DNA of 35,932 bases, taken from Burkholderiales bacterium. GTDB taxonomy: Bacteria; Pseudomonadota; Gammaproteobacteria; Burkholderiales; Ga0077523. The notes below the pieces were generated by a model, which searched no databases, was not told the DNA's origin, and was given only the letters and a program-made list of their open reading frames with translations. The number at the start of each line of letters is the position of its first letter. Positions within the stretch are counted from its first letter, which is position 1. Of this stretch, positions 1 to 26,707 are shown one piece after another. The position numbers were made by a program, and so were the translations under genes. Where the stretch lies: positions 7,173 to 43,104 of the forward strand of contig JALHMS010000015.1 of NCBI GenBank assembly GCA_022843925.1, written 5' to 3'.

Positions 1-800
1 CGAAGCCCGACCCACGGGGGTTGTTTCCAGCGTCGATGAATCCAGTGGCGAGCGCCCCTTCGTGGGTCGAGCATCGCTCGACGCTGCGCTGGCTTGGGCG
101 CAGCGATGAATCCAGGAACGCGGGCGTCGGGCGAAGCCCGACCCACGGGGGTTGTTTCCAGCGTCGATGAATCCAGTGGCGAGTCTCCCTTCGTGGGTCG
201 AGCACTGCTCGACGCTGCGCCGGCTTGGACGCAGCGATGAATCCGGGCGCGCAGGCGTCGGGCGAAGCCCGACCCACGGGGGTTGTTTTCAGCGTTGCGG
301 CATCCAGGGGCGGAGGCCCTTCGTGGGTCGAGCACCGCTCGACGCTGCGCTGGCTTGGGCGCAGCGACGAATCCAGGAACGCAGGCGTCGGGCGAAGCCC
401 GACCCACGGGGGTTGTTTCCAGCGCAGCGGCATCCAGGGGCGGAGGCCCTTCGTGGGTCGAGCACCGCTCGACGCTGCGCTGGCTTGGGCGCAGCGATGA
501 ATCCAGGCACGGAGGCGTCGGGCGGAGCCCGACCCACGGGGGTTGTTTCCAGCGCAGCGGCATCCAGGGGCGGAGGCCCTTCGTGGGTCGAGCACCGCTC
601 GACGCTGCGCTGGCTTGGGCGCAGCGATGAATCCAGGAACACGCGCGTCGGGCGAAGCCCGACCCACGGGGGTTGTTTCCAGCGTCGATGAATCCAGTGG
701 CGAGCGCCCCTTCGTGGGTCGAGCATCGCTCGACGCCGCGATGGCTTGGGCGCAGAGGCGAATCCTGGAACGCGGGCGTCGGGCGGAGCCCGACCCACGA
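1..800 (+). repeat. Family A inverted-REP (BIME-like) tandem array 1
   Basis: About six direct repeats of a 130-131 bp unit; the GTCGGGC-GAA-GCCCGAC hairpin recurs with its right arm near 1, 132, 263, 393, 523, 653 and 784. Each unit holds two hairpins in opposite orientation: GTGGGTCGAGC-ATC-GCTCGAC and GCGTCGGGC-GAA-GCCCGACCCAC. The second is nearly the reverse complement of the first, the layout of a bacterial interspersed mosaic element made of two inverted REPs. The two linkers between hairpins both contain GATGAATCCAG or a close variant. Units between about 290 and 660 carry a variant linker (GCGGCATCCAGGGGCGGAGG) and are almost identical to each other, which suggests recent local duplication. 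The array is cut by the left window edge. Long open frames run through it, but they are by-products of a stop-poor repeat. Confidence 0.93.
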
Positions 801-813
801 CCCGCGCGGAACG

Positions 814-1707
814 ATGATCCCGGTCCTGGGGGCAGCGCCGTGCGCGGAGGCGCTCCGTCGTCTATCGTACGAACGATTTCCCCGCCCGGACGCGACCATC
901 CGAAACGCCCACCATCCCGCCTTTGCGCCAGCCGCCGCGCTCGTGGACCTCACCACCCTCTCTGCCGCGACGGACGCGGCCGCGTTTCAGGACTTCGTCG
1001 CCGCGGCACCGGTGCCGCCCAGGAACGCCGACGGCCTGCCGTTGCGCCCGGTGGACCTGCCGGCCGGCGGCGCGGCGGCGTACGAGCGGCGGATCAGCGA
1101 GACCGGCGAACTGGCCGTGCGCCCCGACACCTGGCACGACCGTCTCAACGTCCTCGCCTGGTGTCTCTTTCCGCGCGCAAAGGCGGCGCTGAATGCACGT
1201 CACGTCGGGGATCTCGCGTTTGCCGACGCGCCCGTCCGGTCCCGCGTCCGCGATGCGCTCACGCTGTTCGACGAGGACGGCCTCGTCGTCGCCTGCGCGG
1301 ACCCGTCTCTCGAAGCGCTCGTCCGCGCGCATCGCTGGACCGAACTGTTCGTCGAGCGTCGCGCGGATGTCGTGTCCCGCTGGGCGTGTGTCCCCTTCGG
1401 CCACGCCTTGATGGAGAAGCTGCTCGATCCATTCGTCGGACTCACCGCGAAGGTTCGCTTCGTGGACGTCCCGGCCGCGTGGTTCGACGCACCGTGGCCG
1501 GAACGCATCTCGACGCTCGACGCCGCACTCGCTGACGCACTCCGCGACCCCGCGGACTTCACCACGCCGCGCGTGCTCGCGCCGCTGCCGGTGCTCGGGC
1601 TGCCGGGATGGTGGGACGACAACACCGATCCGCGGTTCTTCGAAAATCGGGGATACTTCCGCGCCTCACCGGAGCCCGGATCACGCCATGTCAAAAAACG
1701 TGCATAA
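814..1707 (+). CDS. DUF3025 family protein
   Basis: A 297-aa protein resembling the DUF3025 family of Burkholderiales and relatives, recognised from the central block with WHDRLNVLAWCLFPRAKAAL and the following HVGD. The function of the family is not known. No signal peptide or membrane segment is evident, so it is probably cytoplasmic. I chose the ATG at 814 because the frame upstream is repeat sequence; the last family A hairpin ends at about 800, so the leader is almost entirely repeat-derived and holds only a weak GCGGAA-like ribosome site. The frame is open further up to 673, through the repeat, so an N-terminal extension cannot be excluded. The 3' end overlaps the cystathionine beta-synthase gene by 20 bp, suggesting co-transcription. 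Confidence 0.8.
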   Translation: MIPVLGAAPCAEALRRLSYERFPRPDATIRNAHHPAFAPAAALVDLTTLSAATDAAAFQDFVAAAPVPPRNADGLPLRPVDLPAGGAAAYERRISETGELAVRPDTWHDRLNVLAWCLFPRAKAALNARHVGDLAFADAPVRSRVRDALTLFDEDGLVVACADPSLEALVRAHRWTELFVERRADVVSRWACVPFGHALMEKLLDPFVGLTAKVRFVDVPAAWFDAPWPERISTLDAALADALRDPADFTTPRVLAPLPVLGLPGWWDDNTDPRFFENRGYFRASPEPGSRHVKKRA

Positions 1708-3055
1708 CGACATTCTCGGCGCCATCGGCCACACGCCGCTGGTACGACTCAACCGCATCGTGCGCGACATCCCCGCGACGGTGTACGCGAAGGTCGAGAC
1801 GACCAACCCGGGCCACAGCATAAAGGACCGCATGGCGCTGCGCATGATCGAGGACGCCGAGCGCGCGGGCCTGCTGAAGCCCGGCGGCACGATCATCGAG
1901 GGCACCAGCGGCAACACGGGGATGGGCCTCGCGATCGCCGCCATCGTGAAGGGCTACAAGTGCATCTTCACGACCACCGACAAGCAGTCGAAGGAGAAGG
2001 TCGACGCGCTGCGGGCCTTCGGGGCGGAGGTGATCGTCTGCCCGACCGACGTCGACCCCGAGGACCCGCGCTCGTACTACTCCGTCTCGTCGCGCCTCGT
2101 GAAGGAGACGCCCAACTCCTGGAAGGCGAACCAGTACGACAACCCGAGCAACGCCCGCGCGCACTACGAGAGCACGGGCCCCGAGATCTGGGAGCAGACC
2201 GAGGGCCGCGTCGATCACCTCATCGTCGGCGTCGGCACGGGTGGCACGCTGTGCGGCACGGGCCGGTTTCTGAAGGAGAAGAAGCCGGGCGTGCAGATCC
2301 TCGGCATCGACACGTACGGCTCGGTCTTCAAGAAGTACAAGGAGACCGGCATCTTCGACAAGAACGAGATCTACCCGTACGTGACCGAGGGCATCGGCGA
2401 GGACTTCCTGCCCGAGAACGTCGACTTCTCCGTGATCGACCACTTCGAGAAGGTGACCGACCGCGACGCCGCCATCTGGACCCGCGAGATCGTGCGCCAG
2501 GAAGGCATCTGGGTGGGCTACTCGGCGGGCTCGGCCATCGCCGGCCTCATGCAGATGAAGGACCGCTTCCGCGAGGGCGAGACGATCGTCGTGATCTTCC
2601 ACGACCACGGCACGCGCTACGTGGGCAAGATCTTCAACCCCGAGTGGATGCGCATGATGGGTTACGAGAACATCGAGGGCCCCACGGCCCGCGAACTCGT
2701 GCGCAACAAGAAGGCCGCGGCGCTCGTCGGCCTGGAAGTGACGGCGAGCATCGCCGACGCGATCCGCCTGATGGGGGAACACGACTTCTCGCAGATCCCC
2801 GTCACCCAGGACGGCCGCATCGTGGGGTCGCTCTCGGAGTCCCACGTGTACGCGTGCATGGTGAAGGACCCCAAGCTGCGCCACGAACCCGTGAAGGCGA
2901 TCCTGCAGAAGCCGTATCGCTTCGTCGACATCGAGACGCCGGTGTCGCTGCTCGCGCCGATGATCACGCCGGAGCATCCGGCCGTGCTGGTGAAGGATTT
3001 CCCCGCCGACCGCACCTACCTGCTCACCGGCTACGACGTGCTCGGGGTGGTCTGA
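1688..3055 (+). CDS. cbs: Cystathionine beta-synthase (PLP enzyme with C-terminal CBS pair)
   Basis: A 455-aa fold-type II PLP enzyme that would condense serine (or O-acetylserine) with homocysteine to cystathionine in the cytoplasm. The Schiff-base lysine is K46 in SIKDR, the substrate loop is TSGNTGMG (residues 73-80), the phosphate loop is GTGGT (183-187), and YSAGSA (278-283) supplies the serine near the pyridine nitrogen. EGIGEDF (234-240) is typical of cystathionine beta-synthases rather than plain cysteine synthases. Residues from about 338 to the end form a tandem CBS-domain module, the usual regulatory tail, so length and architecture are complete. The ATG at 1688 lies inside the end of the DUF3025 gene, with GGAG at 1671 upstream. 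No cystathionine gamma-lyase lies nearby. A serine sulfhydrylase activity is the main alternative. Confidence 0.92.
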   Translation: MSKNVHNDILGAIGHTPLVRLNRIVRDIPATVYAKVETTNPGHSIKDRMALRMIEDAERAGLLKPGGTIIEGTSGNTGMGLAIAAIVKGYKCIFTTTDKQSKEKVDALRAFGAEVIVCPTDVDPEDPRSYYSVSSRLVKETPNSWKANQYDNPSNARAHYESTGPEIWEQTEGRVDHLIVGVGTGGTLCGTGRFLKEKKPGVQILGIDTYGSVFKKYKETGIFDKNEIYPYVTEGIGEDFLPENVDFSVIDHFEKVTDRDAAIWTREIVRQEGIWVGYSAGSAIAGLMQMKDRFREGETIVVIFHDHGTRYVGKIFNPEWMRMMGYENIEGPTARELVRNKKAAALVGLEVTASIADAIRLMGEHDFSQIPVTQDGRIVGSLSESHVYACMVKDPKLRHEPVKAILQKPYRFVDIETPVSLLAPMITPEHPAVLVKDFPADRTYLLTGYDVLGVV

Positions 3056-3070
3056 GGGACGGAAGTGGCG

Positions 3071-4729
3071 TCAGGCGTCGTACCGGTCGATGACGTGGCC
3101 GGGCCCGGCGTCGAGCGCCACGTAGTCCGTCCCGTCGAACACCTGGGTGCCGTTCACCCACACGCCGTGGACGCCGGTCGGTCGGCGGATCGTCCTTTCG
3201 CCGCCGGCCGGGAGATCCCGCTGCCGCACGAGGCCTGAGAGACCGACCCGCGCCGGATCGAACAGCAGGAGATCCGCCCATCCGCCGGGGGCGATGCGCC
3301 CGCGCCCCGGGATGCGGTACTGCGCCGCCGGATGCGATGTCAGCCGACGCACACCTTCCTCCAGCGTGAACGTGCCGGTCTCGCGCACCCAGTGAGACAG
3401 CAGGTGCAGCCCGAACCCCGCATCGCAGAAGTAGATGAGGTGCGCGCCCGCATCCGAGAGTGCGATCACGCCGGCCTCGTGCTTCAGCAGCGGGGCAACA
3501 CCCGCGTCGTCGTTCTGGAAGAGCTTCGCGATGAAGCGCGTCCGCAGGCCGTCGGCGAGCGCGGTGTCGAAGAAGAAGTCGAGCGGATCCACGGCGGCCT
3601 CGGCGGCGCGCTGCGAGACCGACGTCCCGTCGGGCATCTCGACCTTGCGCCAGTCGCCGTGGAAGAGAATGCCCGGCTTCGGGTGCGCGAGGTTTTCGCG
3701 CAGCCGCGCACGGAAGGCGGGGTCGGCGTAAATCGCCGGCAGCTCGCCCGGTGTCGCGGTCTTCACGCGGTCGAACGCGTCGTGCGACAGCATCAGGTAC
3801 GGATCTTCCAGCGTGAAGTCGAACGACAGTGGCTGGCAGCTCGTCTGGATCGCGACCTCATGACCACGCGCACGCGCGGCCGCGCAGCGTTCGTACCAGT
3901 CCATCGCGGTCTTCGGCGCGCTGGCGTTGTGCATCGTCAGCACCGTGACGATGAACGCCGGGCGGCCCGTGCGCACGGCGATGTCCTCCATGAACTCCGG
4001 CGTGCCGCGCGGGCCGGTGGCCATCACGAACACACCGCGACCGGCCGCCCGCAGCGGTTCGACGAGCGCATGCAGCTCGGCGTCGGAGGCGATGGTCGAC
4101 GGCATCGGCAGGCCGCCGAAGCCGCTGTGATTCGGCGAGAACGACGACGCGAAACCGGCCGCACCTTGGGCCAGGGCCTCCTTCACCAGCGCGCGCATCC
4201 GCGCGATTTCATCGGCGGTGGGCGTCGCCCGCGTCGATGCCTCCGCGCCCATCACGGCCGTCCGCACCGTCGAATGTCCGAAGAGCACGCCGACGTTGGC
4301 GTACGGCTTCACGCGTCGCAGCTGATCCAGGTATTCCGCGAACGTCTCGAACTCCCAGCGCGTCCCCGTGAGCAGCGCGTCGAGGTCCATGCCTTCGACG
4401 ACCGAGAGATTCTTCACGATGGTCTCGCGCAGCAGGGCGGGGCAGGGGGCGATGCCGAAGCCGCAGTTGCCCATGATCGCCGTCGTCACGCCGAGCGAGG
4501 GCGACGGCGACAGCGTGCGGTCCCACGTGATCTGCGCGTCGTAGTGCGTGTGGACGTCGACGATGCCGGGCATGAGTGCGAGGCCGTCGGCATCGACGGT
4601 CTGCCGGGCTGCGTCCGTGATGCGGCCCACCGCGACCACGCGGCCGTCCGCCACGGCGACGTCGCCCCTCATGCGGGGGGCGCCGGTGCCGTCGATGATG
4701 GTGGCGCCGCGGATCAGGAGATCGTGCAT
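3071..4729 (-). CDS. Amidohydrolase family protein, N-acyl-D-amino-acid deacylase type
   Basis: A 552-aa metal-dependent hydrolase of the D-aminoacylase branch of the amidohydrolase superfamily. It has the N-terminal beta-sandwich start (HDLLIRGATIIDGTG), the metal motif VDVHTHYDAQ with H60 and H62, and MGNCGFG with C89, the cysteine that bridges the metal in D-aminoacylases. Length is normal to slightly long for the family (about 480-580). The ATG at 4729 was chosen because similarity begins there; the frame stays open to 4894, but that part is not family-like. Known members hydrolyse N-acyl-D-amino acids, and others act on related cyclic or acylated amides, so the substrate is uncertain. 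No signal peptide is seen. It is convergent with the cystathionine beta-synthase gene (13 bp apart) and divergent from the TauD-like gene. Confidence 0.85.
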   Translation of the reverse strand: MHDLLIRGATIIDGTGAPRMRGDVAVADGRVVAVGRITDAARQTVDADGLALMPGIVDVHTHYDAQITWDRTLSPSPSLGVTTAIMGNCGFGIAPCPALLRETIVKNLSVVEGMDLDALLTGTRWEFETFAEYLDQLRRVKPYANVGVLFGHSTVRTAVMGAEASTRATPTADEIARMRALVKEALAQGAAGFASSFSPNHSGFGGLPMPSTIASDAELHALVEPLRAAGRGVFVMATGPRGTPEFMEDIAVRTGRPAFIVTVLTMHNASAPKTAMDWYERCAAARARGHEVAIQTSCQPLSFDFTLEDPYLMLSHDAFDRVKTATPGELPAIYADPAFRARLRENLAHPKPGILFHGDWRKVEMPDGTSVSQRAAEAAVDPLDFFFDTALADGLRTRFIAKLFQNDDAGVAPLLKHEAGVIALSDAGAHLIYFCDAGFGLHLLSHWVRETGTFTLEEGVRRLTSHPAAQYRIPGRGRIAPGGWADLLLFDPARVGLSGLVRQRDLPAGGERTIRRPTGVHGVWVNGTQVFDGTDYVALDAGPGHVIDRYDA

Positions 4730-4893
4730 GGACGTTCCAATGAGGAGGGGGTGGCCTGCCGGCTTGTCGTCCGGCAGGAAGCGTCCGATTCTATGCGCGC
4801 GCAACGCCGGAATCGCGCTGCAGTGCACGAGTGCGCGACCCGCGATCGTGGCGCGATAATCGGTGCCCACGCCGCGTATCGGGATCCATCGCA

Positions 4894-5763: not shown

Positions 5764-5871
5764 AGACGCTTGCAACGCCGGTGGCGTCCGCCCAGCGGTT
5801 ACCATCGCGCCCTCGTCGCGGGCACCGCTCGCGACGAACCGTCACCACGCACCACCCCTCAGGAGGAATCC

Positions 5872-6195
5872 ATGCTGCTCGACGTCCGCACCTACACCTG
5901 CCGCCCCGGCACCATCAAGAAGCACCTCGCGCTCTACGAAGCCAAGGGGAAGGGCCCGCAGACCCGTCACCTCGGTCAGCCGTTCGCGTATCTCACGACC
6001 GAGACCGGCAACGTGAACCAGTACATCCACATCTGGGCGTACGAGAACGCGGGTGATCGCGAGACGAAGCGTGCCGCCATGTGGGCCGATCCGGAATGGC
6101 TCGCCTACACCCAGGAGAGTGCTGCGCTCGGCGCGCTGGAGTCGCAGGAGAATCGTTTGATGACCCCGGTGTCGTTCTTCCCGATCACGCGCTGA
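5872..6195 (+). CDS. NIPSNAP family protein
   Basis: A 107-aa small protein of the NIPSNAP family (dimeric ferredoxin-like alpha/beta barrel). Recognised from the start MLLDVRTYTCRPGTIKKHL and the WAYENAGDRETKRAAMWADP block typical of the family. Bacterial members often sit beside catabolic enzymes and their biochemical role is mostly unknown. An excellent ribosome site, AGGAGGAATC at 5861-5870, fixes the ATG at 5872 and rules out the longer frame. It follows the TauD-like gene by 108 bp and converges on the acyl-CoA synthetase gene, 43 bp away. No signal peptide is present. Confidence 0.88.
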   Translation: MLLDVRTYTCRPGTIKKHLALYEAKGKGPQTRHLGQPFAYLTTETGNVNQYIHIWAYENAGDRETKRAAMWADPEWLAYTQESAALGALESQENRLMTPVSFFPITR

Positions 6196-6238
6196 GGCCG
6201 TGCCGCGGCTGGCGCGCCCCGCGCACGCCGGCCGTGGC

Positions 6239-7807: not shown

Positions 7808-7963
7808 GGCGGCGCACTCGCTGCGTGTGTGAGGTGCCGCATGGTAGGGGGCCACCTCGTCCGGGACAATCGAGAGCCGTGCGGCACTGCGGCATTGCAT
7901 CTGCCCGCGAGCGCGCCTCGTATCTGTCGGATCGTCGTGTTCCTCGACTCCTGCGAGAGCGCC

Positions 7964-8782: not shown

Positions 8783-8789
8783 CGCGGTC

Positions 8790-9477
8790 GGGCGTCGAGC
8801 GAAGCTCGACCCACGGGGGCTGTTTTCAGCGCCGATGAATCCAGTGGCAAGGATGTTCGTGGGTCGCGCTACGCTCGACGCGTCGATGGCTTGGGCCCAG
8901 CGATGAATCCAGGAACGCAGGCGTCGGGCGGAACCCGACACGCGGGGGTTGTTTCCAGTACCGACGAGTCCAGTGGCGAGGATGTTCGTGGGTCGAGCTA
9001 CGCTCGACGCGCCGATGGCTTGGGCACTGCGATGAATCCAGGAACGCAGGCGTCGGGCGAACCCGACCCACGGGGGTTGTTTTCAGCGCCGATGAATCCA
9101 GTGGCGAGGATGTTCGTGGGTCGAGCTACGCTCGACGCGCCGATGGCTTGGGCACTGCGATGAATCCAGGAACGCAGGCGTCGGCGAAGCCCGACCCACG
9201 GAGGGCGTTCTCAGCGCCCCTGGTCCCAACGGCACAGCCCTTCGTGGGTCGAGCTACGCTCGACGCGTCGATGGCTTGGGCCCAGCGATGAATCCAGGAA
9301 CGCAGGCGTCGGGCGAAGCCCGACCCACGGGGGTTGTTTTCAGCGCCCCTGGTCCCGACGGAACAGCCCTTCGTGGGTCGAGCTACGCTCGACGCAGCGC
9401 GCGCTTGGGCACAACAGCGCATCCAGGAACGCAGGCGTCGTGCGAAGCCCGACCCACGGAGGGCGTTCTCAGCGCCG
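8790..9477 (+). repeat. Family A inverted-REP array 2
   Basis: About five units with period 128-129 bp; the marker GCTTGGG recurs near 8889, 9018, 9146, 9274 and 9403. Same two inverted hairpins and the same orientation as array 1. Here the first hairpin is GTCGAGC-TAC-GCTCGAC with a loop different from array 1, and several linkers carry CTGGTCCC instead of GATGAATCCAG. It fills the whole space between the DUF1223 and YciI-like genes, both on the + strand, apart from about 110 bp before the latter. Confidence 0.93.
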
Positions 9478-9586
9478 AGTTGTCACCACACTGTCTTCGC
9501 ATCCCGCTGCGGCGCGGTGTACGCTCGCGCCACCGCGTCCGTCCCTTCCTTCCCGGCGCGACCAACCCAGTGCAAAGGATTGTCCG

Positions 9587-9958: not shown

Positions 9959-12900
9959 ATGAAGCCGACGCCGCCGACCGGGCAGCGCGCGAGCGGGGGG
10001 CGTCCGGAGCAGGCGTTGGCGTTCGCTGTCGCGCCGTGGATCGTGCTCGGCCTTTCGCTCACGCTCACCGTCCTCGCCTGGTGGTCCGCCGGGGCCGACC
10101 GGTCGCAGGATGAAGCGCGGCATTTCGACGCCGTTGTCGCCGATGTCCTGCAGCGCGTGGACGCGCGCTTCGTTGCAACGGAACAGGCAGTGCGTGCCGC
10201 GGCGAGCTTCGTATCCACCAGCAGGGACGTCACGGCGGCAGACTGGGAACACTTCGTCCGCGGACTCTCGCTGCCGGAGACCACGTTTCCCGGTGCCATG
10301 GGGATGGGTTACGTCCAGCGTGTGCCGGACGGCGATCTCCCGGGTCATGTCGACGCGCTGCGCCGCGGCCGGGCCGGCTACACCGTCTGGCCCGAGGGCG
10401 CCCCGTCCGACCACTATCCCATGGTCTTTGTGTGTCACCTCGATGCCGCCGCCGCGGACCGATCCCTCGGATTCGACTCCGCCGCCGACGGCCCGCGGCG
10501 TGATGCGATCGAGCGCGCAGCGAGCACGCGGAAGCTGACGTACTCGCGCGTCGTCACCAATCGACCCGACGTCGGCGCGGGTGCGAAAGGGCTGGTCCCG
10601 TCGGGCCCCGCGTTTCTGATGTACGCGCCTGCGTGGGCACCGGCGGCCCCGGGGCGGGAGGGGCAGCTCAGGGGCCTTGCCATGGCGCGCGTGGACATCC
10701 AGTCGCTGCTGAAGAGCGCGCTGCCCGCCGGATCCGTTGCGGCCGTTGCCCTTGTCGCCGTGGATTCCGACGGCCGTACCGTCACGATCGACACCCATCC
10801 CGATGGGGCGCGGTTCGTGCGCCTTGCCCCCCGCGAAGTGGCCAGCACCCGCGGCGGCGTGGCGTTCTCGATTCGCGTCGCGCCACTGGCGTCGTTCGGG
10901 ATCGCCGACGGAGGCGGCCTGGTCTTCTGGGTACCCATCGTCGGCGGCCTGGCGTCCTTCGCCCTGTTCGGTGGCGTCCTGGTGCTCGACCGGCGACGCC
11001 GGGCCGAAGTGGCCGGTCTCAACGCGGCGATCGACGAGAACGCACGCCGATTTCGCGACATGGCCGACACGGCGCCGTTCACGGTATGGCTCGCGGACAC
11101 GAGGATGTGGATCACGTATCTCAACCCGGCCTGGTCGGAGAGCACAGGATTGCCCGCCGGTCAGGTCACGCTGCAGAGTTTTGCGCCGGCGTTGCATCCC
11201 GAGGAGAAGCCGCTTCTGGAAGGCACCGCCCGCAACGCCATCGCCACGCTCGCCGACTTCGCCGTGCAGCACCGCGTCCGGCACGTGGGCGGGCAGTGGC
11301 GCTGGCACCTGACGCGCGGACGCGCCATCCGTGACGGTCAGGGGAGGCCGGTCGGCTTCATGGGGATGTCGCTCGACATCCATGACCTGAAGGCCGCCGC
11401 CTCCGAGCGCGAGGCCAGTCTCGCCTTCATGAAGGACCTCGTCGACGCGATTCCGATCCCGATCGTCGTGAAGGACGACAAGCTGCGCTTCGTGTACGTC
11501 AACACCGCGGCCGGCGACATGCTCGGTCGAACGCCGGACGAAGTCCTGGGAATGGACGATTTCGCGTTGTTCCCGCGGGAGGACGCCGAGCGATTCCGCG
11601 AGCGCGACCATGACGTCCTGGCCTCCGGCAAGGCGCTGCGCGACGACGTCACGTACGCGCCGATCCACGGGCCCAGGGTCGTGAAGGGGCTCGGCATGCA
11701 GGTGCCGCTGCGGCGTCCCGACGGCAGCGTGTTCCTGGTGGTCTCTGCGATCGACATGACCGACCGCCACGAGGCCGAGCAGGCCGCGCGCCGGGAACGG
11801 GGATTCCTCGATGCCATCATCGACGCCATGCCGCAGCCCGTGTTCGTGAAGGACGACCGGCATCGGTGGGTCCGGGTCAACCAGGCCTTCGCCGACGTCT
11901 TCGGACAATCGAAGGACGCGATCGTCGGCCGTTCCGATTGCGATTTCCTCCCACCCGAGATCGTTGCCGAGGCCTACGCGGAGGACGACGAGGTTCTCGC
12001 GACCGGGCAGCCCGTGACACGGGAGATCCGCGCGAGACGGCCGGGCAGCGACGGTCGCTGGGTCCTGTTGCGCAAGGCCCTGGTGCAGCGGGAGGATGGG
12101 GCGCGATTCGTCGTCGGCACGACGGCCGCCATCGACGATCTGAAGGCGGCGCAGGAGCGTTCGGAGAACGGCGAGCGACTCCTCGTGCAGGTGCTCGAAG
12201 CGCTTCCGATCATCTTCGTCGCGAAGGACGAGAAGGGTCGCGTCGTGCTGGCGAACGATGCGTTCCTCTCGTTCCACGGCCTCGAGCGGGAGGCGACGCT
12301 CGGCCGCACCGATGTCGAACTGTTCGGGCCGGACCGCGGCGGGTGGTATCGCGCCCAGGACCGCGCGATGCTGGATGGCGGCGAGCCCCTCGTTTTCGAG
12401 GAATCCATGACGGCGGCCGACGGCAGCGGTCACTGGGTCATCAAGAGCAAGCGTCTCGTCGACACCCCGGGGACCGGGAAGCTGGTGCTCGTCACGGTGC
12501 AGGACATCACGGCGCGGCGGACGGCAGAGGCCTTCCTCGACGCGGTGCTCCAGTCCATCCCGGTACCGATCGTCGTGAAGGACCGCCATCACCGGGTCGT
12601 CCAGGCGAATCGCGAGATCCTCGATTTCTTCGGGTGCAAGCGCGAGGATTTCATCGGGCGCACCGACGACGATCTCTTCGAGCCCGCGACCGCCGCCCAG
12701 AACCGCGCCGAGGACGACGCGCTGTTCGCGACGCACGGCGAGACCTCCATCGAGCAGCGCTACGACATCGCAGGTTCGCGCAGCGCGTGGATCATCAAGC
12801 GCAAGCGCGCGTTCTCGATGCCCTCGGGCGAGCAGTTCATCGCGCTGTCGTTCGTCGACATCACCGAGCGCCGGGAGGCGGAACTCGAAGTGCGACGCAG

Positions 12901-15364
12901 CCGCGCCTTCCTCGACGCGCTGATCGGGGCGATGCCGCAGGGCGTGTGCGTCAAGGACGAATCCGGCGTCTGGGTGCTCGCGAACGAAGCGCTGTGCCGC
13001 ATGTCCCGCCAGCCGGCGGAGCGGGTCATCGGACACCGCAATGCCGACATCTACGGCGAGGAGGCCGGCCGTCGCTACGACGCCGAGGACGCCGAGACGC
13101 TGCGCAACGGTATCCCGGTGGTCGTCGAGGAGTTCACGGCCGCCGCCGCCATCGCCCCTTGGATCCTGAAGACGAAGACACCGGTGACCATGCCCGACGG
13201 CAGCCGTTATCTCGTCGTCACGGTCACCGACATCACGGCGCCCAAGCGCGCGGGCGAGGCGGCCGAGCGCGCCCGCCACTTCCTCGACGAGATCGTCGAC
13301 GCGGTGCCCGTGCCGGTGTACGTCCGCGACGCGGCGCATCGCATCGTCGTCACGAACCAGGCGGCCGTGCGGCTCCATCGGCGTCCCAAGCACGAACTCA
13401 TCGGTACCACGCTCGGCGCGCTGCTCGGCGCGCCGGCCGATCTGGAGGGGCGACTGCGGCAGGCCACGGGGGACTCCCGCGTGGTCGAGGTGCCGCTGTC
13501 CTATCCCGATGGCCGCGTGCTCTGGACGATGCGCAGCGAGGTGGCCACGCAGCTCGCCGACGGCAGCGAGTACGTGATCAGCGTCGATGTCGACATCACC
13601 GAGCGGCGCAGGGCGGAGCAGGCGCTGCGCCAGACGTCCCTGCGCCTGGAGGTGCTCAACGCGATCGCACGTGCGATGACCGCCGGCGCGTCGATCGACG
13701 CGATCCGCCAGATCGCGGTGCGGGAGCTGTCACTCGTGCTCGGAGGAAGGCTGGTCGCGCTGTGCGAAGTCGAGCCGGATGGCGGCCTGAACCCCCTCGC
13801 CTCCGCCGCGATGCCCGATGGTCTGGCAGCCGCGACCGGTGGAACGGTCCGGCAGCGAATGGCGCCGGGGGCCGTGGCTGCCCTGCGCGCCGGCGAACTG
13901 GTCCGTGTGGAGAACGCGTCCCGGGATCCCCGTTGCGACGGGCAGCAGTTGACGATCGGCGACGCGCCGGTGGTCGCCTTCCTCGATGCGCCCATTCGAA
14001 GGGGACGCGACGATGGCTTCATCGCCGTCCTGTGCGTGGCCTCGACCACCCCCCATGCCTGGACCGACCAGGAGGCGACCATCGTCACGGAGGTCTCCAA
14101 GACCCTGGCGGTCGCCGAGATCAACGCGCGCACCGAAGCCGAACGGCGGCGCGTCGAGACCGAGTTGCGGGATCGCGAGTCCCGGTTGCGCACCATCGTG
14201 TGGGCGGCCGACCTCGATGTCTGGTCGTGGGACATCCGCGCCCAGACGCTCCAGCTCTCGCCCGGGGCCGCCACCCGGGTCGGGCGGCACGGCCATCCGC
14301 TCGAGATCCCTATGGCGGACTTCCTGGCACACGTGCACCCCGACGACCGCGAACGCATGGCTCGGACAGTGCGGCAGGCACTCACCTCCGACGCCGACCA
14401 GTACGAGGTCGAGTACCGGCTGCAGCATGTCGAAGGGTTCTACATGGACACGCTCGCCCGGGCGCACATCAGCCGCGATGCGGATGGGATGGCCGTGAAG
14501 GTCATGGGGGGCAGTCTCGACGTCACCGAGTACCGCGCCGCGCAGGAGGCCCTGCGGCGCCACCGCGACGACCTGGAGCGGCTCGTCGCCGAGCGCACGC
14601 GGGAACTGACCGAGGCCAAGGAGGCGGCCGAGATGGCGAACCAGGCGAAGTCGGCGTTCCTGTCGAACATGTCGCACGAACTCCGTACGCCGATGCACGC
14701 GATCCTGTCGTTCTCGCGCCTCGGCATCGACCGGAGCCACGGGGGGCAGGGTTCCGTCGATCGCCTCACCCAGTATCTGGAGCGCATCCACCAGAGCGGC
14801 AACCGGCTCCTGCTGCTGCTGAACGATCTGCTCGACCTCTCGAAGCTCGAAGCCGGCAAGATGCATTACGAGTTCGACCACCACGAGCTGCCGGACATCG
14901 CCGGTACGGTGGCGGCGGAACTGGCCGAGCTGGCCCGGGAGAAGCAGGTGCAGGTGTCGATCGAGGAGGACGGCCGGGCGCCGCGGGCCTGGTGCGATGC
15001 CGTGCGGATCGCGCAGGTCGTCCGCAACCTGCTCTCCAACGCGATCAAGTTCACGCCGGCCGGCCGCCGCGTCCGTCTCGTCATCGACGCCGATGCCCTG
15101 GATGGCGAACCCGCGGCACGGCTTCAGGTGATCGACGAAGGCGTGGGCATCCCGCCCGACGAACTGGAGACCGTCTTCGACAAGTTCGTCCAGAGCAGCA
15201 AGACCAAGAGCGGTGCGGGCGGTACCGGCCTCGGGCTCGCGATCTGCCACGAGATCGTGCAGCAGCACGGCGGCCGGCTCTGGGCGATGAACAATCCCGA
15301 CGGTGGGGCCTGCTTCACGTTGCTGCTCCGCATGCGCCCCGGCTTCACCGCGTCCACGCACTGA
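9959..15364 (+). CDS. CHASE/multi-PAS/GAF sensor histidine kinase
   Basis: A 1801-aa membrane sensor kinase. TM1 is at about 22-42, a CHASE-type periplasmic sensor at about 55-300 and TM2 at about 321-343. Cytoplasmic PAS domains follow at roughly 364-478, 487-604, 612-730, 738-852, 856-972, 981-1095 and 1105-1217, then a GAF domain (about 1228-1390) and another PAS (about 1405-1526). HisKA has the phosphoacceptor H1573 in MSHELRTPM, and the ATPase has its N box at 1690-1700, G1 (DEGVGIP) from 1726, F box VFDKF at 1739-1743 and G2 (GGTGLGLAI) to 1762. There is no receiver or HPt domain, and no response regulator gene lies in the window, so its partner is elsewhere. The second to seventh PAS domains share a repeated opening motif, a sign of internal duplication. 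The ligand is unknown. Confidence 0.93.
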   Translation: MKPTPPTGQRASGGRPEQALAFAVAPWIVLGLSLTLTVLAWWSAGADRSQDEARHFDAVVADVLQRVDARFVATEQAVRAAASFVSTSRDVTAADWEHFVRGLSLPETTFPGAMGMGYVQRVPDGDLPGHVDALRRGRAGYTVWPEGAPSDHYPMVFVCHLDAAAADRSLGFDSAADGPRRDAIERAASTRKLTYSRVVTNRPDVGAGAKGLVPSGPAFLMYAPAWAPAAPGREGQLRGLAMARVDIQSLLKSALPAGSVAAVALVAVDSDGRTVTIDTHPDGARFVRLAPREVASTRGGVAFSIRVAPLASFGIADGGGLVFWVPIVGGLASFALFGGVLVLDRRRRAEVAGLNAAIDENARRFRDMADTAPFTVWLADTRMWITYLNPAWSESTGLPAGQVTLQSFAPALHPEEKPLLEGTARNAIATLADFAVQHRVRHVGGQWRWHLTRGRAIRDGQGRPVGFMGMSLDIHDLKAAASEREASLAFMKDLVDAIPIPIVVKDDKLRFVYVNTAAGDMLGRTPDEVLGMDDFALFPREDAERFRERDHDVLASGKALRDDVTYAPIHGPRVVKGLGMQVPLRRPDGSVFLVVSAIDMTDRHEAEQAARRERGFLDAIIDAMPQPVFVKDDRHRWVRVNQAFADVFGQSKDAIVGRSDCDFLPPEIVAEAYAEDDEVLATGQPVTREIRARRPGSDGRWVLLRKALVQREDGARFVVGTTAAIDDLKAAQERSENGERLLVQVLEALPIIFVAKDEKGRVVLANDAFLSFHGLEREATLGRTDVELFGPDRGGWYRAQDRAMLDGGEPLVFEESMTAADGSGHWVIKSKRLVDTPGTGKLVLVTVQDITARRTAEAFLDAVLQSIPVPIVVKDRHHRVVQANREILDFFGCKREDFIGRTDDDLFEPATAAQNRAEDDALFATHGETSIEQRYDIAGSRSAWIIKRKRAFSMPSGEQFIALSFVDITERREAELEVRRSRAFLDALIGAMPQGVCVKDESGVWVLANEALCRMSRQPAERVIGHRNADIYGEEAGRRYDAEDAETLRNGIPVVVEEFTAAAAIAPWILKTKTPVTMPDGSRYLVVTVTDITAPKRAGEAAERARHFLDEIVDAVPVPVYVRDAAHRIVVTNQAAVRLHRRPKHELIGTTLGALLGAPADLEGRLRQATGDSRVVEVPLSYPDGRVLWTMRSEVATQLADGSEYVISVDVDITERRRAEQALRQTSLRLEVLNAIARAMTAGASIDAIRQIAVRELSLVLGGRLVALCEVEPDGGLNPLASAAMPDGLAAATGGTVRQRMAPGAVAALRAGELVRVENASRDPRCDGQQLTIGDAPVVAFLDAPIRRGRDDGFIAVLCVASTTPHAWTDQEATIVTEVSKTLAVAEINARTEAERRRVETELRDRESRLRTIVWAADLDVWSWDIRAQTLQLSPGAATRVGRHGHPLEIPMADFLAHVHPDDRERMARTVRQALTSDADQYEVEYRLQHVEGFYMDTLARAHISRDADGMAVKVMGGSLDVTEYRAAQEALRRHRDDLERLVAERTRELTEAKEAAEMANQAKSAFLSNMSHELRTPMHAILSFSRLGIDRSHGGQGSVDRLTQYLERIHQSGNRLLLLLNDLLDLSKLEAGKMHYEFDHHELPDIAGTVAAELAELAREKQVQVSIEEDGRAPRAWCDAVRIAQVVRNLLSNAIKFTPAGRRVRLVIDADALDGEPAARLQVIDEGVGIPPDELETVFDKFVQSSKTKSGAGGTGLGLAICHEIVQQHGGRLWAMNNPDGGACFTLLLRMRPGFTASTH

Positions 15365-15371
15365 ACATCCG

Positions 15372-16616: not shown

Positions 16617-16651
16617 GAGTGGCCCAGGAAGTACCGCGCCGAAGGAGGCCT

Positions 16652-17016
16652 CGGCGCTGAAGACACCCCCGTGGGTCGGGCTCCGCCCGACGCCCGCGTT
16701 CCCGGATTCGCTGCTGCGCCCAAGCCGGCGCAGCGTCGAGCGATGCTCGACCCACGAAGGGCCTTCGTCCCTGGACTCGTCGACGCTGGAAACAACCCCC
16801 GTGGGTCGAGCTTCGCTCGACGCCCGCGTTCCTGGATTCGCTGCTGCGCCCGAGTCCACGCAGCGTCGAGCGATGCTCGACCCACGAAAGGGCCTCGCGA
16901 CTGGATTCCTCGGCGCTGAGAACAACCCCCGTGGGTCGAGCTTCGCTCGACGCCCGCGTTCCTGGATTCGCCGTTGTGCCCAAGCCATCGCCGCGTCGAG
17001 CCATGCTCGTCCCACG
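16652..17016 (-). repeat. Family A inverted-REP array 3
   Basis: Just under three units with period 130 bp (GTGGGTCG at 16671, 16801 and 16931), in the opposite orientation to arrays 1 and 2. Hairpins are GTCGGGC-TCC-GCCCGAC or GTCGAGC-TTC-GCTCGAC alternating with GTCGAGC-GAT-GCTCGAC. The last hairpin (about 16995-17012) is degenerate, with CATGCTCGTCCCAC in place of the consensus, so the right edge looks decayed. Confidence 0.92.
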
Positions 17017-17085
17017 CCGCTGCCGGTGGCGCGCCGACCCAGCGCTGTGCGACGATACACGGCTGGTCCTGACCCCGGTTCCGCC

Positions 17086-17717: not shown

Positions 17718-17750
17718 CATCCCCGCTTCTCACGACTCCCGCTCCCGACC

Positions 17751-18764
17751 ATGCGCCGCGTCCACGCCCTGCTCTGCCTTGCCGTCTCGCTCGTACTCGC
17801 GTTGGCGCTGCCCGCCGAAGCCGCGCCGGAGAAGCCCCGCCTGCGCATCGCCGTCGGCGGCAAGGCGACGCTCTACTACCTGCCGCTCACGCTCGCCGAA
17901 CGCCTGGGCTATTTCCGCGACGAAGGGCTCGACGTGGAGGTCATCGACTTCCCCGGCGGCGCGAAGGCGCTGCAGGCCGTGATCGGTGGCAGCGCCGACA
18001 TCGTGTCGGGCGGATTCGAGCACACGATCCAGATGCACGCGAAGGGGCAGAAGCTCCAGGCCTTCGTGCTGCAGGGCAATGCGGCGCTGGCGCTCGGACT
18101 CGTGAAGGGGCGTCTCGACGGATACCAGGGTCCGAAGGATCTCGCCGGCCGCAGGGTCGGCGTGACGGCCCCCGGGTCGAGCACGCACACGCTGCTGAAT
18201 CACCTGCTCGCGTCGGCCCAGCTGAAGCCTGGCGACGTGGCGGTCGTGGGTGTCGGCACGGGGGCGACGGCGGTGGCGGCCGCGCGCGGCGGGCAGATCG
18301 ATGCGATCGTGAACGTCGAGCCGGCGATGGTGATGCTCGAACGGGCGGGCGACATTCGCATCGCGCACGAGACCTTCAGCGAGGCCGGTTCGCGCCTCGT
18401 GTACGGCGGTGTGCTGCCGTCCGCCTGCCTGTACGCGAAGATCGATTTCGTGCGCGCGAACCCGCTCACCGTGCAGGCGCTGACCAACGCGATGGTGCGG
18501 GCGTTGCGCTGGTTGCAGGCGGCGTCGAACGAGGATGTGCTGAAGGCGATCCCGCCCGAGTACGCGCTCGGTGATCGCACGGCCTACCTCGCGGCGCTCA
18601 CACGGCTCCGTGGTGTGTACTCGAAGGATGGCGTGATCCCTCCGGCGGGGGCCGAGCTGTCGCTGCGCATCACTGCGCAGGACGACGCCGCGGTGCGCGC
18701 CGCATCGATCGCGCTCGACCAGATCTACACGAACGCGTTCGCGCAGAAGGTGCCCGCACGCTGA
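17751..18764 (+). CDS. ABC transporter substrate-binding protein (NMT1/SsuA-like), Sec-exported
   Basis: A 337-aa periplasmic binding protein of the NrtA/SsuA/THI5 type. A Sec signal peptide (RR then a leucine-rich core, cleavage after AEA near residue 24) leads to the fold-typical opening RIAVGGKATLYYLPLTLAE and a GLDVEVIDFPGGAKALQAV block. The loop APGSSTH, near residue 144, is usual for ligand contact. Family members bind sulfonates, nitrate, pyrimidines or aromatic acids; the ligand here is unknown. It lies 33 bp after the SufU-like gene and 50 bp before a paralogue about 60% identical by eye. No permease is found in the operon. Confidence 0.9.
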   Translation: MRRVHALLCLAVSLVLALALPAEAAPEKPRLRIAVGGKATLYYLPLTLAERLGYFRDEGLDVEVIDFPGGAKALQAVIGGSADIVSGGFEHTIQMHAKGQKLQAFVLQGNAALALGLVKGRLDGYQGPKDLAGRRVGVTAPGSSTHTLLNHLLASAQLKPGDVAVVGVGTGATAVAAARGGQIDAIVNVEPAMVMLERAGDIRIAHETFSEAGSRLVYGGVLPSACLYAKIDFVRANPLTVQALTNAMVRALRWLQAASNEDVLKAIPPEYALGDRTAYLAALTRLRGVYSKDGVIPPAGAELSLRITAQDDAAVRAASIALDQIYTNAFAQKVPAR

Positions 18765-18801
18765 ACCCGGCGGTGGTGCGCGGGTCGGACGGAACAATGA
18801 C

Positions 18802-18810
18802 GGAGGAGGG
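18802..18810 (+). promoter_or_regulatory. Strong ribosome binding site deciding the second binding-protein start
   Basis: GGAGGAGGG lies 4 bp before the ATG at 18815. This favours that start over the in-frame ATGs at 18797 and 18773. Confidence 0.75.
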
Positions 18811-18814
18811 CACC

Positions 18815-19876
18815 ATGGACGGAACCCGGAGTGAAGCGCAGCACCTCGACCTCAGCCGCCGCCGCGCGATTCTGCAGATCGGTGCCGGTGTCGCCGGCCT
18901 CGCCCTCGGCGTGTCCCGCGCCCATGCCTCGCCCGAGAAGCCGCGCCTCACCCTTGCGGTCGGCGGCAAGGCGACGCTCTACTATCTGCCTCTCACGCTG
19001 GCCGACCGCCTCGGCCACTTCCGTGACGAAGGACTCGAGCCCGAGATCGTCGACTTCCCCGGCGGCGCCAAGGCACTGCAATCGCTGATCGGCGGCAGCG
19101 CGGACGTAGTGTCGGGCGCCTACGAGCACACCATCACGATGCAAACGCTCGCGCAGAAGGTGCAGGCCTTCGTGCTGCAGGGCATGAACCCCGGACTCGA
19201 ACTCGGCATCGTCCGCGCCCGCGCGGCGGCGTATTCGTGGCCGAAGGACCTCAAGGGGATGCGCGTCGGCGTATCCGCGCCGGGGTCGAGCACGCACATG
19301 CTGGTGAACCATCTGCTCGCCTCCGTCGGACTCACGCCGGACGACGTTTCGATCATCGGCGTGGGCAGCGGGGCCGGTGCCGTGGCCGCGGTGCGCGGCG
19401 GGCAGATCGACGCGCTCTCGTCCGTCGAGCCGGTGATGAGCCTGCTCGAGAAGAGCGGCGATCTGAAGATCGTGCACGAGACGATCACCGACGACGGCAC
19501 GCGCAAGATCTTCGGCGGCACGATGCCGGCGGCGACGCTCTACGCGAAGCAGGCCTTCATCCAGGCGAATCCCAACACGGTGCAGGCGCTCGCGAACGCG
19601 ATGGTGCGGACGCTGAAGTGGCTTGCCGCGGCCTCCACCGACGATGTCCTGAAGGCGGTGCCGCCGGAGTATCTGCTGGGCGATCGCGCGCTCTACGCCA
19701 TGGCCTTCGAGCGCCTGCGCCGCACCTACTCGAAGGACGGCCGCATCCTGCGCAAGGGCGTGGAGAACAGCTACCAGGTGCTGCTGGCGAACAACAACGC
19801 GGTACGCCGTGCGCCGGTGCTCTTCCTCGAGCAGACCTACACGAACGTGTTCGTCGACAAGGCGCTCGCGCGGTGA
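18815..19876 (+). CDS. ABC transporter substrate-binding protein (NMT1/SsuA-like), probable Tat export
   Basis: A 353-aa paralogue of the upstream binding protein, aligned nearly without gaps from EKPRL onward (AVGGKATLYYLPLTLA, DFPGGAKALQ, APGSSTH). The N-terminus differs: DLSRRRAILQIGAGVAGLALG carries a twin-arginine motif followed by a weakly hydrophobic stretch, so export is probably through Tat rather than Sec. Cleavage would fall near AHA-S. The ligand is unknown, perhaps related but not identical to that of the first protein. The stop codon overlaps the start of the ATPase gene (GTGA), so the two are translationally coupled. Tandem paralogues with different export signals point to duplication followed by exchange or loss of the leader. 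Confidence 0.9.
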   Translation: MDGTRSEAQHLDLSRRRAILQIGAGVAGLALGVSRAHASPEKPRLTLAVGGKATLYYLPLTLADRLGHFRDEGLEPEIVDFPGGAKALQSLIGGSADVVSGAYEHTITMQTLAQKVQAFVLQGMNPGLELGIVRARAAAYSWPKDLKGMRVGVSAPGSSTHMLVNHLLASVGLTPDDVSIIGVGSGAGAVAAVRGGQIDALSSVEPVMSLLEKSGDLKIVHETITDDGTRKIFGGTMPAATLYAKQAFIQANPNTVQALANAMVRTLKWLAAASTDDVLKAVPPEYLLGDRALYAMAFERLRRTYSKDGRILRKGVENSYQVLLANNNAVRRAPVLFLEQTYTNVFVDKALAR

Positions 19877-20685
19877 CGGAGACGCTGTTGCGTTCGCCTG
19901 CCGCCGTGGCCTTCGAGGCCGTCGACTGCCGTTTCACCAGCCGCGAAGGGGTCGACACCACGGCCGTGTCCGGCGCGACGTTCGAAGTGGGCGAGGGCGA
20001 GTTCGTCAGCCTCGTCGGGCCCACGGGCTGCGGCAAGTCCACGCTGCTGAACGCCGCGGCAGGCCTGCTGCTGCCGGCCGACGGCCAGGTCCGCGTGTTC
20101 GGAGAACCGCTGCCCGGTCGCAACGTCCACGCGGGCTATCTCTTCCAGGGCGAGGCCCTGCTGCCGTGGAGATCGGCGCGCGACAACGTCTGCTTCGGTC
20201 TCGAACTGCGCGGCGAACCGCGCGACGCGGCGCTCGCGAAGGCCGACGACTGGCTCGCGCGCGTCGGCCTCGCGGGCCACGGCGGCAAGTATCCGCACGA
20301 GATGTCGGGCGGGATGCGCAAGCGCGTGGCACTCGCGCAGACGCTCGTGGTGGAGCCCCGCATCCTGCTGATGGACGAACCCTTCTCGGCGCTCGACGTG
20401 CAGACGCGCGTGCTCATGGAGAACGAACTGCTCGCGCTGTGGCAGCAGGACCGGAAATCGGTGCTCTTCGTGACGCACGACCTCGAGGAGGCGATCGCGC
20501 TTTCGGATCGCGTGATCGTGCTCTCGGCCGGACCGGCGAGCCGCCCGGTGGGGACGTTCCCCATCGACCTGCCGCGTCCGCGCGACGTCGCGGAGGTCCG
20601 CCTCACGCCGGAATTCGTCGATGTGCATCGGCGGATCTGGGACACGCTGCGGGCCGAGGTGATGCGGGCGCATCGGGTGGGGTAG
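19873..20685 (+). CDS. ABC transporter ATP-binding protein (SsuB/TauB-like)
   Basis: A 270-aa ABC ATPase of the nitrate/sulfonate/taurine importer group. Walker A GPTGCGKST (49-57), Q-loop Q92, signature SGGMRKR (145-151), Walker B ILLMDEP (164-170) and the switch histidine in VTHD (H202) are all intact, so it should be active. The GTG at 19873 overlaps the preceding stop codon as GTGA and is the only start that keeps the full N-terminal strand. It should energise import for one or both upstream binding proteins, but the permease gene expected next to it is absent: the stop codon is followed within 20 bp by family A array 4. The partner permease may lie elsewhere or have been lost. Confidence 0.92.
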   Translation: MTETLLRSPAAVAFEAVDCRFTSREGVDTTAVSGATFEVGEGEFVSLVGPTGCGKSTLLNAAAGLLLPADGQVRVFGEPLPGRNVHAGYLFQGEALLPWRSARDNVCFGLELRGEPRDAALAKADDWLARVGLAGHGGKYPHEMSGGMRKRVALAQTLVVEPRILLMDEPFSALDVQTRVLMENELLALWQQDRKSVLFVTHDLEEAIALSDRVIVLSAGPASRPVGTFPIDLPRPRDVAEVRLTPEFVDVHRRIWDTLRAEVMRAHRVG

Positions 20686-20700
20686 GGGGGTGTCGGGGGT

Positions 20701-21050
20701 GCGTGGGTCGGGCTCCGCCCGACGCCCGCGCTTCTGGATTCACCGCTGTGCCCAAGCCAGCGCCGCGTCGAGCGATGCTCGACCCACGAAGGGCCTGCGC
20801 GATTGGATACCGCGGCGCTGAAAACAATCTCCGTGGGTCGGGCTTCGTCCGACGCCCGCGTTCCTGGATTCACCGCTGTGCCCAAGCCATCGCCGCGTCG
20901 AGCGATGCTCGACCCACGCAGGTGCCTCGCAACTGGATGCCTTGACGCTGAGAACAACCCCCGTGGGTCGGGCTCTGTCCGACGCCCGCGTTCGTGGATC
21001 CGCAGCTGTACCCAAGCCAGCGCAGCGTCGAGCGATGCTCGACCCACGAA
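20701..21050 (-). repeat. Family A inverted-REP array 4
   Basis: Just under three units with 130-bp period (GTGGGTCGG at 20703, 20833 and 20963), same orientation as arrays 3 and 5. It fills the space between the convergent ABC ATPase and RIO kinase genes, ending 8 bp from the RIO stop codon. The last outer hairpin has GTCGGGC-TCT-GTCCGAC, a mismatch pair in the stem. Its hairpins would form the 3' ends of both converging messages. Confidence 0.92.
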
Positions 21051-21057
21051 TCCCGAC

Positions 21058-21903: not shown

Positions 21904-21931
21904 CGGCGGAGCGCTCCCGCGATGGCGGCCA

Positions 21932-25441: not shown

Positions 25442-25754
25442 GGTCGGGGAGGGCGATCGAAGGGTTGTGGAGTGCGGGTGGGAGGCGCAAGCCTTGAATG
25501 ACACGCTGCCGTTGGTCGCGCGTTCGGAAGCCGCAACGCCATCCTCGTCCCTTGGCCGAATGGTAACGGACATGGCCCCAGCAAAGGGTGCCGATTTGCG
25601 CGCTGCGGAAGCACCCTGTTTCGAGGGGCTTTCGCGCGACCATGGCAGCGGAATGCTGCTCTACGGCATCTGGTTCCGGAATGCGGAACGGCGGGGCGCT
25701 CGCTGTCCTCATATGCATCGTCAGGACTCGGCGTTGCGGGGTTCGTCGAGGCGC
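25442..25754. other. Intergenic stretch upstream of pyruvate carboxylase
   Basis: About 310 bp between the pyruvate carboxylase start and array 5. It must contain the pyc promoter, but I find no convincing -35/-10 pair on the - strand. Open frames here have no recognisable product. Confidence 0.5.
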
Positions 25755-26707
25755 CCTTGGCGACGCAGCGTCGAGCGATGCTCGACCTACGAAGGGGCGC
25801 TCGCCACTGGATTCATCGACGCTGGAAACAACCCCCGTGGGTCGGGCTCCGCCCGACGCGCGCGTTCCTGGATTCGCCGCTGAGCCCAAGCCGGCGCAGC
25901 GTCGAGCGATGCTCGACCCACGGAGGGGCGCTCGCCACTGGATTCATCGACGCTGGAAACAACCCCGCGTGGGTCGGGCTTCGCCCGACGCCCGTGTTCC
26001 TGGATCCGAAGCTGAGCCCAAGCCGGCGCAGCGTCGAGCGATGCTCGACCCACGGAGGGGCGCTCGCCACTGGATTCATCGACGCTGGAAACAACCCCGC
26101 GTGGGTCGGGCTCCGCCCGACGCCCGTGTTCCTGGATTCGCCGCTGAGCCCAAGCCGGCGCAGCGTCGAGCGATGCTCGACCCACGAACAGCGTCGCCAC
26201 TGGAAGCCTCGACGCTGGAAACAACCCCGTGGGTCGGGCTCCGCCCGACGCCCGCGTTCCTGGATTCGCAGCTGAGCCCAAGCCCTCGCAGCGTCGAGCG
26301 ATGCTCGACCCACGGAGGGGCGCTCGCCACTGGATTCATCGACGCTGGAAACAACCCCGTGGGTCGGGCTTCGCCCGACGCGCGTGTTCCTGGATTCGGC
26401 GCTGAGCCCAAGCCCTCGCAGCGTCGAGCGATGCTCGACCCACGAAGGTCCTCGCCCCCGGATTCCTCGCCGCTGAAAACAACCCCGCGTGGGTCGGGCT
26501 TCGCCCGACGCCCGCGTTCCTGGATTCGCCGCTGAGCCCAAGCCGGCGCAGTGTCGAGCGATGCTCGACCCACGAAGGGCCTTCGCGACGGGATGCTTCA
26601 GCGCTGAAAACAACTCCCGTGGGTCGAGCTTCGCTCGACGCCCGCGTCCTTGGATTCGCCGCTGAGCCCAAGCCGGTGCCGCGTCCAGCCGAAGCTCGAC
26701 CCACGAA
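25755..26707 (-). repeat. Family A inverted-REP array 5
   Basis: The largest array, just over seven units. GTGGGTCG marks lie at 25837, 25969, 26101, 26229, 26359, 26489 and 26619, so spacing is 128-132 bp. Units at about 25837-26230 are nearly identical and share the linker CGCCACTGGATTCATCGACG, which is the reverse complement of the array 1 linker. It lies between the divergent pyruvate carboxylase and tex genes, leaving only about 90 bp before tex. Confidence 0.93.

Follow-up and report, generated by a model that had tools for sequence, protein, structure and literature searches.

We examined a 35,932-nucleotide stretch of a Burkholderiales bacterium genome (contig JALHMS010000015.1, C15:7173-43104; the genome, here G000, comprises 64 contigs and 5.57 Mb), referred to as the window, which carries five tandem arrays of a short hairpin repeat designated REP-A (repetitive extragenic palindrome family A). 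The arrays are very probably bacterial interspersed mosaic elements (BIMEs) of inverted REPs, the non-autonomous cognate substrates of RAYT-A, a Y1 HUH transposase of the REP-associated tyrosine transposase (RAYT) type encoded on another contig, and were later changed locally. This reading draws on the anatomy of the units, their copy number, covariation in the stems, a RAYT gene with this REP on both sides, the co-clustering of RAYTs with their REPs, and conserved array places with changed contents, all of which were observed. The arrays are known in kind, namely BIMEs of a GTGG-headed REP with a cognate RAYT; this member is new.

Tandem Repeats Finder gave the five arrays a period of 129-130 bp and 2.7-7.2 copies each; together they cover 3146 bp, or 8.8% of the window. 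A strand-aware scan allowing ≤2 mismatches identified 49 mostly alternating GTGGGTCG hairpins in the five arrays, corresponding to approximately 24 units of 130 bp, and the description in the initial annotation (five tandem arrays, about 24 units of ~130 bp, near 9% of the window) was borne out. Array 1 (1..799, + strand; 6.1 copies, period 130) contains at least 12 alternating hairpins, carries the linker core GATGAATCCAG on the + strand, and is cut by the window start. Array 2 (8791..9478, + strand; 5.3 copies, period 129) contains 10 hairpins at ≤2 mismatches and 11 at ≤3. The remaining three lie on the - strand with a period of 130: array 3 (16649..17016; 2.8 copies, 6 hairpins), array 4 (20702..21050; 2.7 copies, 6 hairpins), and array 5 (25764..26705; 7.2 copies, 15 hairpins).

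Each unit consists of a pair of hairpins in opposite orientation, in most cases CGTGGGTCGAGC-loop-GCTCGACG and CGTGGGTCGGGC-loop-GCCCGACG, approximately 64 and 66 bp apart. In the 130-bp unit at 669..799 (+ strand), a linker with the core is followed by a GTGGGTCGAGC hairpin (+), a second linker, and a GTGGGTCGGGC hairpin (-); folded as single-stranded DNA, this unit yielded a z-score of -1.98, and 7 of 200 shuffles folded equally well. The REP-A consensus CGTGGGTCGGGCTnCGCCCGACGC, built from 83 distinct variants representing 198 copies in this genome and its close relative G006, degenerate copies included, is a palindrome with a GTRG tetranucleotide at one end and falls within the 20-40 nt that define membership in this class. 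It has a GTGG head, a 7-bp stem (GTCGRGC/GCYCGAC), and a loop of 3-4 bases. The consensus and the alternation of the hairpins support the earlier proposal of a BIME plan with two near-mirror GTGG-headed hairpins per unit and a GTRG-type head. The linkers had also been described as sharing a core; the core is real, being present at ≤2 mismatches in 63 of 160 linkers from the samples of both genomes and in 0 of 160 shuffled linkers, but it is not universal. Its orientation was identical in all 25 pairs of successive linkers in which both carry GATGAATCCAG, and the unit may therefore resemble a duplicated half-unit in which the REP alternates in orientation. An Rfam scan of the window returned 0 matches above the gathering score.

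Stem pairing was then compared with that of shuffled alignments. Stem cells were paired in 95.3% of cases, compared with 92.3% after shuffling (0 of 500 shuffles as high), and changes on both sides of a pair occurred in 34 of 580 cells, compared with 13.2 in shuffles (0 of 500 as many). Sliding the partner by 1-3 columns reduced pairing to 41% or less. The double changes were concentrated at the fifth pair (31 of 34; G-C in 39 and A-U in 31 of the 83 sequences), with the other three at the sixth, and the number of pairs with a double change, two, was not unusual (149 of 500 shuffles). The compensatory change on which the initial annotation had made the BIME interpretation depend is present, though almost all of it at one pair and in rows gathered by a pattern that already held most of the stem, leaving only the fifth pair free (R and Y).

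The family is abundant throughout the genome. A 23-base REP-A pattern matched exactly at 606 places in the genome and at 0 when read backwards, and the wider strict pattern GTGGGTCGRGCN{3,4}GCYCGAC produced 779 (399 + 380) and 0 when reversed; the copies are not confined to the region, as a BIME family would require. In a 1.155-Mb sample (C1 1-400000, C2 1-360000, C3 1-359000, plus the window), 25 loci held 157 REP-A copies, of which 141 stood in arrays of at least four, up to 15 hairpins; with the window set aside, 107 copies remained at 20 loci, 91 of them in arrays of at least four, up to 14 hairpins. Reversed controls in the sample gave 5 matches for REP-A and 0 for the second family described below. 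Across C1-C3 and the window, orientation alternated in 129 of 132 neighbour pairs, at least 108 of which were spaced 64-66 bp apart. REP-A arrays span 0.80% of the sample, window included, and their local density in the window exceeds that of the genome. The initial annotation had considered the arrays denser than in most described genomes; the predominance of sampled copies in arrays of four or more agrees with this, but the comparison covers one described genome, that of Pseudomonas fluorescens SBW25. Several contigs begin inside REP arrays (C2, C4, and C5 in G000; C5, C12, C18, and C26 in G006), so the assemblies probably break there and the counts are probably lower bounds. A covariance model, applied as a check on 150 candidates per genome rather than as a copy count, matched 145 candidates in G000, 147 in G006, 5 in the more distant genome G077, and 0 in each of five other genus members.

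The genome also contains a second family, REP-B (GTAGGAGCGGGCC; pattern TGTAGGAGSGGSCCATGSCCSCGA), which is unrelated to REP-A and has its own RAYT, RAYT-B. One REP-B array, absent from the initial annotation, occupies 35277..35932 with 4.8 copies of 137 bp and 10 hairpins and runs into the window end. Strict REP-B matches numbered 614 genome-wide (289 + 325; 0 reversed), and the 1.155-Mb sample contained 152 at 28 loci, in arrays of up to 18 hairpins.

Three Y1_Tnp genes were found in the genome. RAYT-A (C33:35178-35603) and RAYT-B (C27:59750-60184) scored 117.2 and 121.7 bits against NCBIfam NF047646 (cut-off 80), whereas the third Y1 gene, on contig C3, scored 71.2 bits, below the cut-off; Pfam Y1_Tnp scores were 23.4-26.7 bits (cut-off 23). 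RAYT-A lies between 9 and 5 REP-A hairpins on both strands (L003 788-1306 and 1935-2173), and the 20 kb around it contained 32 REP-A and 0 REP-B copies. The Y1-type RAYT gene flanked by the same hairpins that the initial annotation had proposed to look for therefore exists, on a contig other than that of the window. RAYT-B has REP-B on both sides, and the 16.7 kb around it contained 34 REP-B and 0 REP-A copies; a short N run lies inside the adjoining REP-B array (L002 ~1059-1068). The HUH motif (H64-x-H66) and the catalytic tyrosine (Y117) were invariant in all eight aligned RAYTs, and the best solved relative of the profile of these eight was TnpA-REP 4er8 (E 2.5e-13). Between G000 and G006, RAYT-B diverged faster (dN 0.112, dS 0.743) than two window genes, RIO (dN 0.009, dS 0.160) and YCII (dN 0.009, dS 0.311). 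Rapid divergence of rayt genes is also described in an earlier report (PMC2817692).

To survey other genomes, 150 were searched with the strict patterns, G000 included. REP-A was present in six, namely G000 (779), G006 (521), G077 (33), and three with single matches, and none was found in the other 144; REP-B was present in two, G000 and G006 (418). Both strict patterns were absent from the other 10 genus members searched, and 10 of 10 loci beside the RIO and YCII genes of other genus members lacked both, with junctions too diverged to read. Beside the RIO kinase gene of another genus member (L067 ~2340-3230, G002:C34), a different tandem inverted-repeat array (GTAGCCCGGACGAGGCGC...) was seen by eye on the side opposite to that of the window's array. 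G077, which belongs to another family of the same order, provided the next best match to RAYT-A (60% identity), flanked by GTAGGTCGGG hairpins.

The association between RAYTs and REPs extended to homologous loci. From the best 80 of 538 RAYT loci in a GTDB scan, 69 were examined, with 11 truncated loci left out, and 67 had at least 200 bp on both sides. GTRG hairpins occurred in both 400-bp flanks of 32 of these 67 homologous RAYTs, compared with 0 of 60 control windows 2.4-2.8 kb away, and 30 shared a 10-mer core. In a tree of 77 RAYTs, RAYT-A fell in a group of eight (support 99/92). Seven of these carried the TCG-stem REP label; only one side of the remaining member, L113, could be read, and it shows GTAGGTCGGG and GTAGGTCAGG hairpins. 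The TCG-stem label required 3 changes on the tree, compared with a shuffled mean of 7.7 (0 of 500 as low), and RAYT-B grouped with RAYTs beside AGC-type REPs. The branch leading to RAYT-A is long (0.92), which makes its position in the tree less sure. The simplest reading of these relationships would be a GTAG-to-GTGG change of the head with the stem retained.

The relative G006 allowed array places to be compared directly. It is the closest genus member by the RIO (99%) and YCII (98%) proteins, and the flanks of the window arrays are 83-95% identical in DNA to it. Hairpin numbers in arrays 1-5 of G000 and G006, which depend on the interval and the mismatch limit, were 12+/10, 10-11/11, 6/6, 6/≥12, and 15/8, respectively. 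In G006, a gene resembling thiol peroxidase by eye stands between array 1 and the shared flank (L270 2230-2900), which makes the correspondence at array 1 less sure; in the window (1-840), array 1 abuts the apparent start of that gene, which hints at a deletion beside the array. Of 52 G000 arrays with at least two hairpins, both flanks could be mapped for 11 (4 REP-A and 7 REP-B, including 3 in the window); at each of these 11 places G006 also had REPs of the matching family, in one case a single hairpin. Hairpin number differed in 8 or 9 of the 11 and was equal in 2, or 3 at the laxer limit. In the reverse direction, 10 of 23 G006 arrays were mapped; C56:18232 had no array in the computed G000 interval, yet it was paired by the forward mapping. 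Several array ends coincided by eye in the two genomes, which indicates that the arrays descend from a common ancestor and that their contents have since turned over. Variation of BIME copy number among strains is also familiar from Escherichia coli.

Unit identities were compared in the five window arrays, two of which (1 and 4) could be matched to G006 by a single flank, owing to the window start and a contig start. The comparison used two dimer types, which share hairpins, and units are not independent. Within an array, identity between units averaged 0.919 and 0.890 for the two types, higher than the 0.885 and 0.859 obtained across arrays of one genome (permutation p 0.0005). Comparing arrays of G000 with their G006 counterparts gave 0.888 and 0.840, no higher than the 0.888 and 0.847 obtained with non-corresponding arrays of the relative (p 0.58 and 0.97). 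These findings suggest that array positions persist while the copies within them turn over. A broader and more tentative proposal, which we hold at well under even odds, is that BIME arrays are fixed intergenic addresses, each of one REP family, whose units undergo amplification, loss, and homogenisation so rapidly that a pair of species with flanking DNA 81-98% identical has hardly any recognisable units in common; the presence of an array would behave as if selected, and the RAYT or recombination would rewrite its contents.

By analogy with the RAYT family, RAYT-A or a recent ancestor would most likely have bound the single-stranded hairpin and cut beside it, founding copies at new intergenic places. 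The arrays would then have grown, shrunk, and become homogenised through unequal recombination, slippage, or repeated RAYT action; the turnover itself was seen in the window's five arrays.

Several results weigh against this account. With a simple finder, 35 of the 67 homologous RAYTs lacked hairpins in both flanks. RAYT-A was not found in the G006 assembly (89% complete) despite 521 REP-A copies there; searches of G006 with the DNA flanking the RAYT-A locus, run without a positive control, yielded no convincing match among the 40 scored of 213-273 candidates, and this carries no weight either way. No clear empty site was detected between G000 and G006 among the arrays mapped both ways, and the corresponding units of array 4 (0.908 and 0.887) exceeded the cross-genome means (0.888 and 0.847), which argues against full turnover there. 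A prediction linking the GTGG head to a CC cleavage site also lacked support. In a Marinomonas system, according to PMC8266576, a GTAG to GTGG change moved cleavage to CC, with CA still allowed; we therefore asked whether CC lies within 8 bases upstream of GTGG-headed REPs and CT upstream of GTAG-headed REPs. G-type REP-A had CC in 62 and CT in 19 of 79, A-type REP-A had CC in 43 and CT in 46 of 74, and REP-B had CC in 80 and CT in 88 of 143. Beside the compared RAYTs, GTAG-headed REPs had CC in 61 and CT in 89 of 147, and GTGG-headed REPs, those of RAYT-A included, had CC in 26 and CT in 33 of 50. Upstream of A-type REPs and of GTGG-headed REPs beside RAYTs, CT was thus no less frequent than CC. 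Five alignment columns (one only a gap) were considered as RAYT-A residues tracking the GTGG head, and none separated the 15 of 73 loci labelled GTGG.

All five REP-A arrays are intergenic, lying outside genes called by Pfam or by open reading frame (ORF) reading, with array 1 running off the window and long ORFs crossing the arrays treated as spurious. Array 2 is bordered by a DUF1223 gene (+) and a YCII-like gene (+), and array 3 by an MFS gene (+) and a NifU_N gene (+). Array 4 separates a converging ABC ATPase ORF (19860-20682, named from reading the ORF) and RIO kinase gene (Pfam), and array 5 a diverging pyruvate-carboxylase-like ORF (by eye) and Tex gene (Pfam). Elsewhere in the window, two adjacent paralogous genes resembling substrate-binding proteins (266 nt at 81% identity) lie at 17751-19876 and precede the ABC ATPase ORF, and a frame of 1801 aa at 9959-15364 has, by eye, many PAS-like repeats and a histidine-kinase-like end.

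The surroundings of the arrays bear on the possibility that the host retains the hairpins chiefly for a role of its own, such as transcription end, mRNA 3'-end protection, or binding of gyrase or another protein, with the RAYT domesticated or incidental. The conserved places of all 11 mappable arrays while their contents turn over are consistent with this, as is the closeness of arrays 2, 3, and 4 and the REP-B array to the stop codon of an adjacent ORF (7-32 bp), and TnpA-REP is called domesticated in PMC8266576. However, one window array lies between diverging genes, upstream of Tex, and the strict REP-A pattern is missing from the other 10 genus genomes searched. We consider host function as the main reason for maintenance rather unlikely; it is compatible with, and not exclusive of, the RAYT-BIME explanation.

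If the arrays were instead simple tandem satellites, generated by replication slippage or unequal crossing-over alone and without a transposase, the greater likeness of units within than between arrays and the differing array lengths in G000 and G006 would be expected. Two genomes nevertheless carry the same unit at numerous scattered loci, and a RAYT gene has an array of this hairpin on either side; slippage accounts for the growth of arrays and not for their spread, which weakens this alternative to the point of being extremely improbable. Nearly as improbable is the view that one RAYT moves both REP families and that the flanking association is accidental. G006 fits it in holding both families while the sole RAYT found in its assembly is the RAYT-B orthologue (82% identity), but in G000 the surroundings of each gene hold one family exclusively, and the two genes group with RAYTs of different REP types, TCG-stem and AGC-type.

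The RAYT-REP record thus gains one genus, with a clean pair in one genome: two RAYTs and two REP families, each RAYT beside its own. The conserved places with replaced contents are the most useful new point. With this pair, and with G006 close enough to show arrays changing length in place, two questions about BIMEs become testable: is it RAYT action or recombination that enlarges the arrays, and does selection act on where they sit?

REP-A resembles the BIMEs and GTAG-tagged REPs of E. coli, Pseudomonas, and Stenotrophomonas (SMAG), as presented in PMC3733652 and PMC2817692, in being a short GTRG-headed palindrome present in hundreds of intergenic copies, with inverted pairs, conserved linkers, and tandem reiteration. 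It differs from them in its mostly GTGG head, in the large share of sampled copies (141 of 157) in arrays of at least four, and in a linker core that keeps direct orientation in successive linkers. A GTGG head is also described, in PMC3733652, for most GTAG-20 elements of O. terrae. RAYT-A conforms to the RAYT/TnpA-REP type (NF047646) in its HUH motif, catalytic tyrosine, above-cut-off profile score, and flanking REPs, and departs from a typical RAYT in its long branch and weak Pfam Y1_Tnp score. The GTAGGTCGGG REPs beside RAYTs in Sideroxydans, Thiobacillus, and Methylococcaceae records and in G077 have the same kind of stem, mostly GTCGGGC, and a similar loop, and those RAYTs are 55-60% identical to RAYT-A; unlike REP-A, these REPs are GTAG-headed, and G077 has only 33 matches to the GTGG pattern. 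The REPINs of P. fluorescens SBW25 are likewise inverted REP pairs, some in tandem arrays, the largest cluster comprising four REPINs and the tandem arrays reaching 12 REPs (PMC3116915). Most SBW25 REPINs are singlets, whereas most of the REPs sampled here stand in arrays, which reach 15 (REP-A) or 18 (REP-B) hairpins.

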